IMG/VR virus record: IMGVR_UViG_3300013126_003256
Coordinates: 1-28,977 of that record
Length of the DNA: 28,977 bases
Source: a virus
Reading direction: 5' to 3' (one strand)
Positions 5,721 to 28,977 of this stretch are shown here, in pieces. Position 1 is the stretch's first letter; each line of letters opens with the position of its first letter. Under the pieces are notes generated by a model, which was given only the letters and a program-made list of their open reading frames with translations, was not told the origin of the DNA and did not search any database. The position numbers and the translations under genes are program-made.

Positions 5721-6065
5721 CTATGGAAAAACAAGCTCCCCGGCCGTTACCGCGCGCTGAGTCTCAGCAACAACCAACTTTGCGACCGCCCGCGAGTCGG
5801 CAGCGCTGAACTGCGTCCCGCTGAATAGATCGACCGCGTTGAAGTTTTGCAAACCCTCAATAGGGACCAACACCAGGAAGCTACCGTATACCTGGCCTGT
5901 TTCGCCGGATTGAACCAACTCAACGAACGTCGCCTGCGTCCCGCTGAATAGATCGAGCCAGTTGAAGTTGTGCAAGCTCTCAATGGGGACCAACACCAGA
6001 AAACGGCCGTATACCTGGCCTGTTTCGCCGGATTGAACCACCTCAACGAATGTTGCTTCTTTCAT
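5721..6065 (-). CDS. tandemly duplicated small protein, 114 aa
   Basis: ATG 6065 overlaps the preceding stop in ATGA and has GAGGCG upstream. The protein consists of two 41-residue copies in tandem, about residues 4-44 and 45-85. Each runs ATFVE(V/L)VQSGETGQVYG, then FLVLVPIE, then DLFSGTQ, with only about eight differences. A helical tail follows (FSAADSRAVAKLVVAETQRA). Strand-rich copies with a conserved SGETGQVYG turn suggest a small beta domain that may dimerise with itself. The gene follows the tail-tip and receptor-contact genes, so it may be a minor tail decoration or an accessory protein. The function is unknown. Confidence 0.7.
   Translation of the reverse strand: MKEATFVEVVQSGETGQVYGRFLVLVPIESLHNFNWLDLFSGTQATFVELVQSGETGQVYGSFLVLVPIEGLQNFNAVDLFSGTQFSAADSRAVAKLVVAETQRAVTAGELVFP
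5811..6056. repeat. two tandem 123-bp copies
   Basis: 5811-5933 and 5934-6056 are direct copies in frame with the 114-residue gene. They share long identical blocks and differ by scattered substitutions, so the duplication is not brand new. Confidence 0.9.
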
Positions 6066-12566: not shown

Positions 12567-14750
12567 CTACAGTGTGCCCAGTGTAGCACGTCCCGTGACG
12601 GCCGCGCTCAGGACGCCATTGCGCGATAGGTCGTCCCGGATGAACCTGCCAAAGTGCTGGTAGACGGGGATGGGGACAATCGTTGGTTGGGACGGTTGAC
12701 CACGATTTAGGGCGTTTACGCCAAACTCTCCACCAAGCGAACGCACCGCCCCGCGATTGAGTACCGCTTCCCCGGTCATCGCCCGGATGGGAACTTGGTC
12801 CGCCATCATGCCACCCTGGATCAAACCACCTCGGTCGAAGGCTGGTTTTTGCTTGGAGATCACTGCGATTTGGGCCGCGGTGGATGTGGTGATGCCTGCG
12901 GTGGCAAGCGCGCCGGCAACCGGTCCGAGTTGACGTAGGGCCATTGTGATAGCAACCGCCCCGTTGACGGTGGCCTCTGCGACGGCTGCCGCCTTGGACG
13001 CCCGGAACTGCTGTATTGCGAGCTTGCGGTTAGTCTTGGCGTTCTCTTCGGCGGCAACCGCCATCAGGTCAGACACGCCACCCGCGAAAGTTGCCATCGA
13101 CCCAAGGCCATTTTGGAGCATCCGGGACCGTTCGGCCTGTAGCTTCTGTTCCCGCTCCATCTGGGCTTGGAAAGCCTGCTCTTCGAGCATTGCCTTGGCA
13201 TCGAGATATGCGCGGTCCTCTTCCAATCGCAGCGCGTTTTTATCGCGCTCCAACCGGTCGAGTACCGCACTCTTGGCCTGTTCGGCTTTGATTTGTGCTT
13301 CGGCGCTTTGGCTTTGGGCCGCCGCAAGCTCGTCAATCTGGCGGATTTGGTCTGCCGCTGCAAGGCCAAGTTTGCGGTAGCCGTCAATCTGGTCATCACC
13401 CGTCTGGCGGATAATGCCGTCAAGCGATGCCATCGCCGCTGCGAGTTCTTGCGCGGCACGTTCGGCGTCTTTCAGGTCTTTCGCGAGGTCTTTTGCCCCT
13501 CCTCTCTGGGCCGCCTCGTCCGCCTTGGCATCGGTCACGAGGCGGACCCCTTCAGCCAATAGGATACGCTCTTCGCGTTCGCGCTCAATCGCGTTGATTT
13601 GCGTGGTCAACCGCTGCACATCTTTTCGGGCCGACCCAAGGGCAGCTTCGGCTTGCTTGCGTTCGTCTTCGGACAGTTGCCCGGACGCAAGCCGCTCTTT
13701 GTTGAGTTCTACCCGCGCGGCACGTTCCGCCTTGGCTTGCTCCAAACCTAAGCGGGTGGCATCATAGTTCTTTTTGATTGCTTCGGTTTCTCGCTTGTAA
13801 ACCGCTTCCCCTTGGGTGATAACCCCATTCAATACGTCAAACTGTAGACGGGCCTCGTCTGTGTCGCCTTTGAGTGAAGCGATCGTACGGTTCAAGGCTA
13901 TTAGTTGCGTGTCGGTCTTCTTGGCGGCTATCTCTGCGTCAGCCAATCGCTGGGCGAATCTTCCGTTTGCTTCGGCGTATTCTTCGGCTGCGTTCTTGGC
14001 GGCCAGATAGGTGGTTCCTGCGGCGGCTACCGCAAGCGTCAGCGGGAGGAGGACAGAGCTTGCCTTGGCTACTGCGGCGAATAAGCCGCCGAATGATTCT
14101 TTCAGGACCGCGGTTGCACTATTGGTTCCCATGAGGGCATGTGCAACGTCGGGCCCCTGTTGGGCGAGGACCACGAAGGGATTCATCCCGCCCGCAAGGG
14201 TGGTGCCAATGTCTGCGAGCTGGGCGCGGAAGACTTTGGCACGGAAGGACAAATCGCCCACAGACACACCAGCGGCGGCGGCACGTTGGGCGGTGACCCC
14301 GAGGTCTTCGGCAACCGTTGCGACAGCCGGACGTAGCTTCTGTAGTTCCTTCTCGTAGGCCGCCGTTGCGGCGGCGGTGGCTTTGGTCGCCGCAACGTGG
14401 TCGCCGGTCTGGAACGCGAGAGCGGCGATTTCTTCCTTCTGGCGTTGGAACTGTAGCGTCAGGCGCCCCATTGGGTCGCCCGCCGCGGCCAAGTCTTGGA
14501 GCCTGCGTTGGGCTACTTCCATCGCTTGGATGGAGCGTTCTACCGCTGCCTCCGCTGCTTTGGCGGCGGCCTCGGTGTTTTGGCGCATTGCTTGCGCGGC
14601 TTCCTTGGCTGCTTTCTCGGCTTTCAGAAATCCTTTCTCTAACGCAATCGCCATTCTCTTGGCTTCATTCTCGGTAATCCCCGGGATTGAACCAAGGCTC
14701 GCAGTCAATGCCGAGATGTCAGCGCGCAGCGATAGGGTGGCGACGCTCAT
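12567..14750 (-). CDS. tail tape measure protein
   Basis: The 727-residue protein has a long Ala/Glu/Lys-rich helical N-terminus. It carries the phage tape-measure motif RAQLADIGTTLAGGMNPFVV followed by LAQQGPDVAHAL, as in the TMP_2 family, near residues 178-210. A hydrophobic segment (SSVLLPLTLAVAAAGTTYLA) comes next, then a second long coiled-coil region. A Gly-rich C-terminal end contains GEAVLNRGAVRSLGGEFGV. At about 1.5 angstrom per residue it would specify a tail of roughly 110 nm. It spans the tail lumen and is released during DNA entry. Its position after the chaperone genes is canonical. It overlaps the gene before it by ATGA. Confidence 0.93.
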   Translation of the reverse strand: MSVATLSLRADISALTASLGSIPGITENEAKRMAIALEKGFLKAEKAAKEAAQAMRQNTEAAAKAAEAAVERSIQAMEVAQRRLQDLAAAGDPMGRLTLQFQRQKEEIAALAFQTGDHVAATKATAAATAAYEKELQKLRPAVATVAEDLGVTAQRAAAAGVSVGDLSFRAKVFRAQLADIGTTLAGGMNPFVVLAQQGPDVAHALMGTNSATAVLKESFGGLFAAVAKASSVLLPLTLAVAAAGTTYLAAKNAAEEYAEANGRFAQRLADAEIAAKKTDTQLIALNRTIASLKGDTDEARLQFDVLNGVITQGEAVYKRETEAIKKNYDATRLGLEQAKAERAARVELNKERLASGQLSEDERKQAEAALGSARKDVQRLTTQINAIEREREERILLAEGVRLVTDAKADEAAQRGGAKDLAKDLKDAERAAQELAAAMASLDGIIRQTGDDQIDGYRKLGLAAADQIRQIDELAAAQSQSAEAQIKAEQAKSAVLDRLERDKNALRLEEDRAYLDAKAMLEEQAFQAQMEREQKLQAERSRMLQNGLGSMATFAGGVSDLMAVAAEENAKTNRKLAIQQFRASKAAAVAEATVNGAVAITMALRQLGPVAGALATAGITTSTAAQIAVISKQKPAFDRGGLIQGGMMADQVPIRAMTGEAVLNRGAVRSLGGEFGVNALNRGQPSQPTIVPIPVYQHFGRFIRDDLSRNGVLSAAVTGRATLGTL

Positions 14751-25021: not shown

Positions 25022-25159
25022 GGTTGGATATTCCTGGTTTTTTAGCCGTAGTGTATGCGCAGGGACACAAAAAGGCTCCCCCCGGTACCCACCCCAGGTA
25101 CACGGGTATCCGCTTCCATCCTTGCCTTTCCGCGATATACCATTATCGGCCTCGGTCCT

Positions 25160-25706: not shown

Positions 25707-26849
25707 TCAATCCAACCGCATGGGCATGACGACACCCAATACCCCTTCGGTGCCCGCGCCCTTGACCAGCACAGGGTCAAGCGCCTGACCAAAGGTGATA
25801 AGCACCGTTTCGGCCTTGCACGCTTTCGCTGCGTCCGCCAGATACTTTGCATTCATGCCCACGGCATAACCCATGGGGCCGTCATACTTGGCGTCAATGC
25901 TGATACTTGCGTCGCCCGACTTGGGCGAGGTGACCGTCAACCTCACTTGGTCGGGGTACATGGTCAACCTGACCGTCCGGTTTCGGTCCTCAATCATGAC
26001 CTCAACACTTGATAGGGCCCTTGTAAGGTCGGCAGTTGAGATTTCGAGCACCGCCGCCCGCTTTGTGTGTTCGCCGATGACTTGGCGGTAATCCGGGAAC
26101 TCGCCATCGAAGAGGCGGCTAATCATCCGAATCCCGGTCTTCATCCAATCGAACTGGATGAACTTCCCGCCCTTGTCAACGGTCACCTGCACATCTTCGC
26201 CCTTGTCAGGCTCAATCCCAAGGACAAGGGCCGCCGTCTCGCGTGGCAGGATTGTTTTCTTTGCGAGGGCAAACGCACCAGATGAAGTTTCGATAGATGC
26301 GTAGAATAGCCGGCTTCCGTCGGTGGCCACCATTCGCGACCCGGATTGAGCCCAAGGCTCAAGGTTCTCGATATGAACACCGTTGATGCCGTACTTGTTG
26401 TCATCCTCCGAGATTGCGTGCATCACCCGCGATAGGGTGCCATGCAAGGCATCCGCGGCAACGGTGCAATACCGCCCGTCGATTGCGTCAATGTCAGGCG
26501 GGAAATCGGCGTATTCCGCCGAATAGACATTGAGCGTAAACCGGCCGGTTCCGCCCGACACTTCGAGCCGGCCACCCTTGGACGTAAGGTGTAAGGCCAC
26601 TTCTTCGGAGTCCAGGGCGTTGACAACGCTGAATAACTTTTTGGCGTCCGGGTAGCAGGTCCAATGCTCGCCACCGGTCCCGGGTACCAGCCGGACGATT
26701 TCCCGCAAGCGTTGCCGCTTGTTGTCGGCCGTCAGGATGTATTCTGCCCCATTCATGTGGAAACAGATCACCTTTGCGTCTTTGTCCGCGCTCACCCGGG
26801 CCAATCGCCCGAGGGCACCGAGCAACGCCGAACGATTCACCTTGACCAT
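25707..26849 (-). CDS. dnaN: DNA polymerase III beta sliding clamp
   Basis: The 380-residue product has the length of a bacterial beta clamp (about 366 residues) and its hallmarks. NKYGINGVHIE lies near 151-161, MVATDGSRLFYA at 173-184, and RLFDGEFPDYRQVI at 245-258. The C-terminal VVMPMRL is part of the partner-binding cleft. Two copies would form a ring holding a polymerase on DNA. ATG 26849 has TTGGAG seven bases upstream; the longer frame to 26990 runs through the promoter. A phage-borne, bacterial-type clamp implies use of the host clamp loader and polymerase III, or of a phage polymerase tuned to this clamp. It probably shares an operon with the MazG-like gene. Confidence 0.95.
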   Translation of the reverse strand: MVKVNRSALLGALGRLARVSADKDAKVICFHMNGAEYILTADNKRQRLREIVRLVPGTGGEHWTCYPDAKKLFSVVNALDSEEVALHLTSKGGRLEVSGGTGRFTLNVYSAEYADFPPDIDAIDGRYCTVAADALHGTLSRVMHAISEDDNKYGINGVHIENLEPWAQSGSRMVATDGSRLFYASIETSSGAFALAKKTILPRETAALVLGIEPDKGEDVQVTVDKGGKFIQFDWMKTGIRMISRLFDGEFPDYRQVIGEHTKRAAVLEISTADLTRALSSVEVMIEDRNRTVRLTMYPDQVRLTVTSPKSGDASISIDAKYDGPMGYAVGMNAKYLADAAKACKAETVLITFGQALDPVLVKGAGTEGVLGVVMPMRLD

Positions 26850-26895
26850 GCAAGCTCCAAGCGCCACAACCGGGCGCGCTCCATCGTTTCGATTC

Positions 26896-26924
26896 AGTGT
26901 ATCGCAGAGCGCGACAGGTGACAA
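26896..26924 (-). promoter_or_regulatory. strong sigma70-like promoter for dnaN
   Basis: In minus-strand sense TTGTCA (26924-26919) and TACACT (26901-26896) are spaced by exactly 17 bp. Transcription would start about 40 bases before the dnaN ATG. Confidence 0.8.
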
Positions 26925-26958
26925 GCGGAGGGCCCGCAGGCCAGCCCCAGGCGCTCGC

Positions 26959-26985
26959 CTTACACGTCTTACATTCGTGTGTAAG
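26959..26985. promoter_or_regulatory. CTTACA/TGTAAG inverted repeat upstream of dnaN promoter
   Basis: CTTACAC (26959-26965) is inverted as GTGTAAG (26979-26985), and a second CTTACA at 26968-26973 also pairs with the same TGTAAG. The element lies about 35 bp upstream of the dnaN -35 box and could be an operator. TGTAAGGG recurs at 27053 and 27312. Confidence 0.45.
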
Positions 26986-27016
26986 CGCACACCCTGAAAA
27001 GGTGGCGACGGTCGCC

Positions 27017-27370
27017 CCTAACATCGGGCACCCTCATTCCTAACATTCTGGTTGTAAGGGATGTTAGGTAGCTCCAACGCCAACAATCGGCCGAAAAATC
27101 GAATCCTAACATTTCTGAACATACACATGCTTATAGGGGACAGAAAAAAAAGAAAAGATTCACCCCCCTCTCCTCCCTATGGGGGGGTCTTCTTTCATTA
27201 TGTTTTCCCGCGCGCATGTAGAGAGTCCTTTCAAAATGTTAGGATTCGCATAAAATGACGAATAGTATAGGTAGTAACTACATTACATTCATTACATAAC
27301 TTTGTTAGACATGTAAGGGGTAGCCATGGAGGCACCTTTTCGAGCAGATTTCCTAACATCGAATGTTAGG
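27017..27370. repeat. array of seven CCTAACAT sites, candidate origin/operator region
   Basis: The 8-mer CCTAACAT occurs on the plus strand at 27017, 27039, 27105 and 27352, and inverted (ATGTTAGG) at 27061, 27236 and 27363. The first three are exactly 22 bp apart and the fourth is 44 bp further on. The last two face each other as a 19-bp palindrome with a CGA centre. Sites four and five extend to a 15-bp inverted repeat (27100-27114 and 27234-27248). The stretch is more AT-rich than the rest of the window and carries no convincing gene apart from a possible 48-codon leader. It separates dnaN from the primase-like gene. This is the layout of a replication origin or a multi-site operator. Confidence 0.75.
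27162..27188 (-). terminator. terminator-like hairpin, stronger leftward
   Basis: ACCCCCC (27162-27168) pairs with GGGGGGT (27182-27188) around a 13-base loop. On the minus strand the stem is followed by GAATCTTTTCTTTTTTT, a good U tract. On the plus strand the run is only CTTCTTTC. It lies inside the 15-bp inverted repeat of the CCTAACAT array and may end a short leftward transcript. Confidence 0.55.
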
Positions 27371-27472
27371 GCGCTCGGTGAGGGCCCACCGGCCCCGCCA
27401 TGGAGGGCCGACCGCTTGCCCGTCGCAACCGCTCAGGCTACGATGGAGCCAGCCGCGACCCCTCGGCTGTGA
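27326..27472 (+). CDS. 48-codon leader ORF candidate
   Basis: AAGGGG lies five bases before ATG 27326. The frame runs 48 codons (MEAPFRADFLTSNVRALGEG, then a Pro/Ala/Arg-rich rest) to TGA at 27470-27472, inside the left arm of the large stem-loop. It could be a small protein or a leader whose translation controls folding of the stem-loop. Against it, the CCTAACAT palindrome lies within the frame and no homologue is recognised. Confidence 0.3.
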   Translation: MEAPFRADFLTSNVRALGEGPPAPPWRADRLPVATAQATMEPAATPRL

Positions 27473-27522
27473 GATCCCCGCCCGACTGATCCCCGGGCGG
27501 GACTCACACAACCAGCCGAGGG
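27460..27522 (+). promoter_or_regulatory. large nested stem-loop in primase leader
   Basis: An outer perfect ten-bp stem, CCCTCGGCTG (27460-27469) with CAGCCGAGGG (27513-27522), encloses TGAG/CTCA pairing. An inner seven-bp stem, CCCGCCC (27477-27483) with GGGCGGG (27495-27501), lies within. It ends 22 bases before the primase ATG. It may be an attenuator, a translation-control element or a single-strand initiation hairpin. Confidence 0.65.
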
Positions 27523-27544
27523 AAATCGGCAAACAAGGGGCAAA

Positions 27545-28426
27545 ATGAGCAACAATCACGACGGGCACACATGCCCTTCGGCGACCTATCCCTGCGCGAA
27601 ACGAAGCTCGGAAGGTCGCCCCCACGCCACGACTTGGGGCCAAATCCGCCGGGCCCTAACCACCCACAGCCGCGAAAGACAGCCTGACAAAGGCGATGTC
27701 GCGTGCTGGGCCCCTCACACCTTCAAAGTGGGGGCCGCTCGCAAAGCCGGAAACATCGACCGAGTGTGGGCGCTGGTGTTGGACTTCGACCAACCCGGCG
27801 ACAGCGTATCGAAGACGATGGAGCAGTTCCAAGGCTACGAACGGGCAAGCTATGCAACGTATTCCAGCGTTGCAGGGGCCGAAAAGTCCCGGCTTGTGCT
27901 TCCGCTAAAAGAGCCAGTGTCAGGCGCCATCTGGCCGGATGTCATCCGCATTGTGATGGACAGTCTGTCCCTAATCGCCGACAAAAAATGCACGGACCCT
28001 TCCCGTCTTTTCCTCCTTCCCTGCGAAGGACCGGACACCCAATCAGCGTTCGAGCCGGGCGAACTGTTGTCCCTCGCAACCGTCACCCGTGAGGCGGAAA
28101 CCAACGCCGAACTCCGCAAGCGTGCGATTGAACGTCGCAACATCGAATCACGCAGGGCTGCACAGTTTGCCCAGCACTCGGACAAAGCCTGGGCCTACCT
28201 CTTGGCCACCTCCCCGGACGCCCGCGCCGATGCAGCTTACAGGCTTGGTCTGGCGATTGTCGAGCGTTCAACCGGACGCTTTGCGATTCACGGCCTATGC
28301 CCATCTTGTGGGCATAAATCCGTGTGGTTCGCCATCGACAACCAGCGAAGCTCCGGCGCATTCTGTAACCACAAGAACTCTTGCGGCTGGTCGGGTTCCC
28401 TCGCCACCCTATTGGGGCGTCCATGA
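27545..28426 (+). CDS. primase-like replication protein with zinc ribbon
   Basis: The 293-residue product resembles archaeo-eukaryotic-type primases of phages and plasmids. VWALVLDFDQPGD (Asp80, Asp82) is like metal-binding motif I. YATYSSVAGAEKSRLVLPLK (103-122) sits where such proteins have a TYSH...R.VLPL block, with Ser in place of the usual His. DPSRLFLLP (151-159) is the third block. A helical linker follows, then a zinc ribbon (C252, C255, C274, C280). It would prime DNA synthesis at the nearby candidate origin. The missing His leaves catalysis open, so it might be an initiator derived from a primase. AAGGGG precedes ATG 27545. Confidence 0.7.
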   Translation: MSNNHDGHTCPSATYPCAKRSSEGRPHATTWGQIRRALTTHSRERQPDKGDVACWAPHTFKVGAARKAGNIDRVWALVLDFDQPGDSVSKTMEQFQGYERASYATYSSVAGAEKSRLVLPLKEPVSGAIWPDVIRIVMDSLSLIADKKCTDPSRLFLLPCEGPDTQSAFEPGELLSLATVTREAETNAELRKRAIERRNIESRRAAQFAQHSDKAWAYLLATSPDARADAAYRLGLAIVERSTGRFAIHGLCPSCGHKSVWFAIDNQRSSGAFCNHKNSCGWSGSLATLLGRP

Positions 28427-28977
28427 CCACCCACACCGACACCCCACCGCAGGCGCTACCCTCAGAGGGCACCACCGCCACCGAGTCGCCGATGCCCCCC
28501 GAGACGCCCGACCAAGCATCATCCGACACTTTCCCCGATGACCCGTTTGGAGGCATTGACCCCACAGAGCCCCAAGCCGAAGACTTCGAAATCTTGCCGC
28601 CTCCCATGCGCCTTCACCCGGAAGCGGATTGGGGCATGGACACGCCATCCGCCCAATCCCGGCGCGCCGAAGCCCGAGCCCACCTCGACACCCACCTCGA
28701 TACAGTTGGCGATGAAACGGCAGAACCCGCAGACCGCAAGGCATCCGTTGCCTATTTGCGTCGATACCGCGTGGACGTGGCGGAAATCCTACACACAGAC
28801 ATCGACGTGGACCAAGCGATTGCCCGCGCCTCCGCGATTCGGGGCATGTCAGGCGACATTGCAAAGCTCCGGGGCGAATGCAAGGGCATCGAGAAACAGG
28901 CCGAAAAGGCCCAAGCCAAAGCCGAAAAGAAGTTCGCACCGTCATTCCGCACATCCGAGACCATCGTTGGTCCGTCC
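28423..28977 (+). CDS. hypothetical replication-operon protein, 3' end cut by window
   Basis: The start overlaps the primase stop in ATGA, and the frame is open through the last base (185 codons). The N-terminal 65 residues are disordered and rich in Pro, Thr, Asp and Glu (TTHTDTPPQALPSEGTTATE; MPPETPDQASSDTFPDDPFG). A helical part follows (SVAYLRRYRVDVAEILHTDI; DQAIARASAIRGMSGDIAKL), then a Lys/Ala/Glu-rich coiled coil. An acidic linker plus helices beside a primase could introduce a helicase or ssDNA-binding protein, but the visible part has no Walker motif. The identity is therefore open. Confidence 0.7.
   Translation, partial: MTTHTDTPPQALPSEGTTATESPMPPETPDQASSDTFPDDPFGGIDPTEPQAEDFEILPPPMRLHPEADWGMDTPSAQSRRAEARAHLDTHLDTVGDETAEPADRKASVAYLRRYRVDVAEILHTDIDVDQAIARASAIRGMSGDIAKLRGECKGIEKQAEKAQAKAEKKFAPSFRTSETIVGPS

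Follow-up and report, generated by a model that had tools for sequence, protein, structure and literature searches.

The window analyzed here is the whole IMG/VR virus record IMGVR_UViG_3300013126_003256 (28,977 bases), which is classed as linear and is thus probably a fragment of a tailed-phage genome. Its noncoding region at 26850–27544 holds an array of short repeated sites, a putative replication origin, between a clamp gene on the minus strand and a primase gene on the plus strand. The clamp gene (25707–26849, minus strand; the open frame itself reaches further upstream) encodes a DNA polymerase III beta clamp homologue, and the match of its product to Pfam PF02768 (4e-20) confirms the dnaN gene named in a preliminary description of this DNA. 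Leftward, the minus-strand genes run in the order beta clamp, MazG, and then large terminase, tape measure, and other proteins. On the right, the primase gene (27545–28426, plus strand) encodes a predicted archaeo-eukaryotic primase (AEP) of 293 aa with a C-terminal Cys/His zinc-binding motif. It is followed at 28423–28977 (plus strand), where the record ends, by the N-terminal part of a probable DUF927 helicase, the candidate initiator.

The array comprises seven exact copies of the 8-mer CCTAACAT/ATGTTAGG, here called iterons, all within 27017–27370, four on the plus and three on the minus strand. Iterons 1 (27017–27024, plus), 2 (27039–27046, plus), and 3 (27061–27068, minus) are followed by iterons 4 (27105–27112, plus) and 5 (27236–27243, minus), which lie within the left (27100–27114) and right (27234–27248) arms of a 15-bp perfect inverted repeat, CGAATCCTAACATTT/AAATGTTAGGATTCG, that is built around them and brackets the array center. 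Iterons 6 (27352, plus) and 7 (27363, minus) form the 19-bp palindrome CCTAACATCGAATGTTAGG at 27352–27370, as previously described. Furthermore, degenerate iteron-like copies are found at 26958–26984 (CCTTACACGTCTTACATTCGTGTGTAA) and 27281–27318 (CATTACAT and TGTTAGACATGTAAGG), and such weaker copies (CTTACA/ATGTAAG types) widen the array to about 26958–27370.

The number of copies is far above chance, as had been claimed: in 2000 dinucleotide shuffles of 26950–27450, no 8-mer exceeded four copies, and when the entire noncoding region was shuffled, 0 of 300 runs reached seven copies. Rather than being spread over the record, CCTAACAT is absent outside 27017–27370, and its reversed control word has zero copies in the record. 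The 22-bp grid proposed earlier holds for the first four sites only (chance of 0.3% for period 22 and 1.3% for any period of 20–24 by simulation), the sites as a whole lack helical-phase coherence (Rayleigh P 0.13 at 10.5 bp), and the spacing is lost in relatives. Helical phasing was thus set aside as a functional clue, being weak and not conserved.

The array encloses an AT-rich core at 27114–27310, a putative DNA unwinding element. The highest AT content per 100 bp of the record (0.67) is located at 27221–27340, with a 60-bp peak of 0.75 at 27250. Five iterons lie to the left of this 60-bp peak, two to the right, and none inside, and the right set also includes degenerate copies.

Arrays of different motifs in related phages

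Single-sequence scans with the clamp or the primase yielded no close relatives, and the array region had zero DNA similarity matches in 50,697 phage records. A terminase search retrieved 18 contigs at about 42–50% identity, and CCTAACAT occurs in none of these (0/18). A clamp is encoded in four of the longer ones and a recognizable primase in three of these four; the primase of G020 is 48% identical to that of the window. Additionally, L129–L140 were obtained by a primase-profile search, and L155/G022 was fetched only for a hairpin word shared by primase leaders, without selection for the presence of an array.

In nine other records, primase/helicase genes of the same kind are accompanied by arrays of different motifs (CGCGACCC, AGGTGTGGCA, GGTGTCAC, GGTGGGCC, GTGGACG, and TGGGACAC). 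In G020, a CGCGACCC array occupies the noncoding region upstream of the primase, and L130 has a CGCGACCC array in the same arrangement. G012 contains nine AGGTGTGGCA-type sites in the region after the primase and a VapE-type helicase. The arrays of L131 (GTGTCAC, ten copies), L132 (GTGGGCC), L134 and L135 (GTGGACG/TGGACG), and L137 (GTGGGCTT) all lie beyond the helicase operon, and thirteen TGTCCCA sites (TGGGACAC type) are directly downstream of a helicase-like gene in L155/G022. In L131, the left and right array halves agree in the order, orientation, and spacing of their sites, each forming the same 105-bp module (−, +40, −65, +105). Shuffle tests support the arrays of G020, G012, L130, L131, L132, L134, L135, and L137, each for at least one word length, and weakly support that of L138.

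In 10 of 10 records, sites flank the most AT-rich 60 bp on the left and on the right, and no more than one site falls within this stretch. Similarly to the window, G020 (44 kb) and G012 (49 kb) have the most AT-rich 100 bp of the entire record within their array regions. Such flanking of the AT-rich peak, seen in ten records, corresponds to the arrangement of an iteron origin in which the central region melts. The preliminary description had taken loss of the array in relatives as evidence against its proposal; the motif itself is indeed lost, and another motif is arrayed in the same kind of place.

Primase, helicase, and known origin systems

The window primase has weak PHROG primase matches. 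In a 10-sequence alignment, residues D80, D82, R116, D146, D151, and R154 are invariant, in addition to the C-terminal Cys/His motif. The AlphaFold model (predicted local distance difference test score, pLDDT, of 78.7) finds its best PDB match in 6zp9, the AEP domain of cyanophage S-2L PrimPol (E 7e-4, probability 1.00). Based on the predicted fold and the conserved DxD and Arg motifs, the protein can be assigned to the AEPs, which gives substance to its earlier label as primase-like. Over 67 aa, the N-terminal part of the window helicase shares 42% identity (E 4e-9) with the DUF927-domain protein of G020. The latter matches PDB entries 8tch, the "Pathogenicity island protein" of a staphylococcal pathogenicity island (SaPI; 2.6e-31), and 5dgk, Cch (2.4e-8), and the L131 helicase matches VapE 7pds (4e-18). 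Cch has a DUF927 domain and is a relative of the Rep helicase of SaPIbov1 (PMC7581432).

The array had been suggested to be of an undescribed type, which is mostly wrong, as its layout is that of the pri-rep-ori module of phage-inducible chromosomal islands (PICIs) and SaPIs (PMC6092414, PMC7581432). In both cases, several copies of a short iteron (seven exact ones here) lie in a noncoding region, two iteron sets (here five and two) flank an AT-rich region, and the iteron sequence differs between lineages. A primase gene and a SaPI-Rep-type helicase gene stand side by side in the islands and probably also in the window, where the AEP primase gene adjoins the array and the helicase gene is only partly included in the record, its N-terminal part matching the G020 protein that matches SaPI 8tch. 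In contrast to PICIs and SaPIs, the phages described here possess a large terminase and structural genes of their own, encode primase and helicase in separate genes, and, in the window, have CCTAACAT as motif. The PICI origin organization has been said to occur in no other known bacterial replicon (PMC6092414), a statement that appears too narrow in view of these phages with their own terminase. The window is itself not a PICI element, as it encodes a large terminase and a tape measure, and the related 44–52-kb records carry a terminase. The alpha protein of satellite phage P4 likewise combines an AEP-type primase and a helicase acting on short iterons; P4 differs in having one fused protein, another iteron sequence, and a satellite rather than full-phage lifestyle.

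The putative origin at cch/cch2 of the staphylococcal cassette chromosome mec (SCCmec) shares a helicase of the DUF927 (Cch) family, whereas it has only three 5-nt iterons and an A-family polymerase-type primase instead of an AEP (PMC7581432). Cch2 of SCCmec binds direct repeats via its C-terminal domain, and the starts of the associated primase were mapped within the iterons (PMC7581432). In phage NrS-1, the PrimPol (an AEP) recognizes the 8-nt TTTGGTTA and is proposed to start genome replication there (PMC8718748). Unlike helicase-bound iterons, this site is recognized on a single-stranded template and by the primase itself. A PDB sequence search found no match between the window primase and NrS-1 polymerase. 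It is possible that the window primase itself reads CCTAACAT on single-stranded DNA in a similar manner.

A probable iteron origin and its alternatives

Collectively, the array, the AT peak, the neighboring genes, and the replacement of the motif in the same arrangement in relatives indicate that the array quite likely serves this phage as its replication origin, one of the iteron/AT-rich/iteron kind known from PICIs and SaPIs. How the iterons are bound, how the DNA melts and replication starts, and which protein initiates it are inferred from known systems. The initiator, most likely the DUF927 helicase encoded after the primase, would bind the CCTAACAT iterons that flank the AT core, probably as two oppositely oriented oligomers. 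The helicase is proposed as the iteron binder because of the analogy with known systems, in which Cch2 binds its direct repeats. It would then melt the AT-rich core, load itself, and move outward, after which the neighboring AEP primase would make primers and the phage clamp would join the fork. The iterons might even serve twice, as duplex sites for the helicase initiator and then as single-stranded start sites for the AEP primase, although we consider this rather doubtful. If so, helicase, primase, and iteron sequence would co-evolve, and each phage lineage would have a private origin code.

Several observations weigh against the origin interpretation. Only two perfect iterons are present to the right of the window AT peak, and the candidate initiator gene is cut off at the record end. 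The single-sequence model of the G020 helicase (pLDDT 38.5) is too poor to reveal an iteron-binding domain. No significant array was found by shuffle test in L127, L136, and L139. The PICI origin sits directly 3′ of the initiator gene, whereas the arrays of the window, G020, and L130 are located upstream of the primase; in L131, L132, L134, L135, L137, and L155, the PICI-like position 3′ of the helicase gene is occupied or nearly so. GC skew, proposed earlier as a check, is uninformative on the window fragment and lends the origin no support; it is also uninformative in G020, and in G012 an extremum lies near the array with a sign opposite to the usual rule. To this list belong the small XRE repressors of two unrelated phages, which appear to use the same 8-mer and bear on the main rival explanation.

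This rival is a multi-operator switch, the second function raised in the preliminary description, in which the part of the genome that is missing from the record would encode a Cro/CI-like (XRE) phage repressor, and this protein would regulate the divergent operons of the clamp and the primase by binding to the palindrome and to CCTAACAT half-sites. The array region does sit between divergent operons. Moreover, G001 and G002, a pair of related phages in other contigs, carry CCTAACATNNNATGTTAGG next to genes for small XRE regulators (70–76 aa, 53% identical; L008 2924–3210 and L009 1018–1360), which are flanked by CCTAACAT palindromes and half-sites that are apparently their operators, and G002 also has sites 22 bp apart. 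As the search that led to these loci used this same palindrome, some chance hits are expected, and the coincidence is of little weight. In addition, no HTH_3 gene is present in the window record or in G011, G012, G019, and G020, all of which are incomplete records. The window has one palindromic site pair only, the analogous arrays in G012 and L131–L137 come after the helicase operon rather than before it, and an operator does not predict a record-wide AT maximum inside the array. An operator function in place of an origin is thus unlikely, while the initiator-bound origin is favored by synteny, AT-rich peaks, and analogous arrays; the array may also combine an origin with promoter control.

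Two further explanations are far less probable. A terminase-binding or packaging site with cosB/pac-like repeats would fit the arrays of G020 and G012, which are about 1–1.6 kb from fixed contig ends bearing CCCTTTCCCT. However, the conserved neighbor is the primase/helicase pair and not the terminase, the arrays in L131–L137 and L155 abut the helicase operon, and in the window some 2 kb of DNA with the clamp and MazG genes separates the array from the likely end region, which makes packaging very improbable. Equally remote is the idea that the array binds partition proteins, in the manner of a centromere, or other accessory proteins, as in plasmid-like prophages: plasmid partition also uses arrays of short sites near replication genes, but no ParA/ParB-like gene was noticed beside the window array, and partition arrays do not strictly bracket an AT-rich core. 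As for the type of origin, a DnaA-dependent one was rejected, as 26850–27544 contains no DnaA box (TTATNCACA), even with one mismatch allowed.

The iteron/AT-rich/iteron origin type is already known from PICIs and SaPIs. As far as a non-exhaustive search of the open literature shows, its occurrence with fast-changing iterons in phages encoding their own large terminase is new, and so is, for the window branch, an array that lies upstream of the primase. That uncultivated tailed phages with a terminase of their own have this satellite-type layout suggests a replication module common to satellites and phages. A simple rule for finding replication starts in unannotated phage contigs also emerges, namely, to look for the local AT maximum that has the densest cluster of non-tandem words on both of its sides, next to a primase and a VapE/DUF927/D5-type helicase. 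Furthermore, the sharp iteron change between lineages makes initiator–origin co-evolution directly testable.

Palindrome copies, leader hairpin, and genome ends

The palindrome also occurs elsewhere. An 8-kb phage contig (G003; L010 454–1781) has three full CCTAACATNNNATGTTAGG palindromes and a fourth that is one base off, located at gene starts and a stop codon. A search of bacterial genomes mostly returned Candidatus Moranbacteria, with many copies per genome in an intergenic hairpin; in their contigs (many of L015–L092), CCTAACATNNNATGTTAGG is often found in tandem pairs about 24 bp apart and constitutes an abundant intergenic palindrome family. It is also found in terminator-like hairpins of Psychrobacter/Acinetobacter. 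These bacterial copies were judged unrelated to the window array.

The leader of the window primase folds with a z of about −5 and contains a hairpin (27475–27503, plus strand) with the loop CGACTGATCCCCG, which is conserved in G020 (L125 about 13500–13530, minus strand) and L130 (about 2910–2942). In these three phages, the hairpin is about 60–75 nt upstream of the primase start, and in a fourth, L155 (9395–9409, minus strand), it precedes a helicase gene. The loop is invariant and the stem varies. The hairpin has no Rfam match at the gathering threshold, as is the case for the window as a whole.

Nine contigs (L101, L102, L104, L107–L111, and L116) begin exactly at CCCTTTCCCTGTC, about 600 bp upstream of the terminase. 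G020 ends with CCCTTTCCCT, and G012 ends with CCCTTTCCCT followed by AGATCGGA, the start of an Illumina adapter. These contig ends are physical genome ends at a fixed position and are probably cohesive, and a diverged counterpart of the end sequence is found in the window at about 25050–25110. The window further contains a 15/30/60-bp tandem repeat at 1–244, apparently coding for a protein with pentapeptide repeats that is truncated where the record ends, and a 123-bp direct duplication within a reading frame at 5811–6050, the two copies of which are 89% identical.
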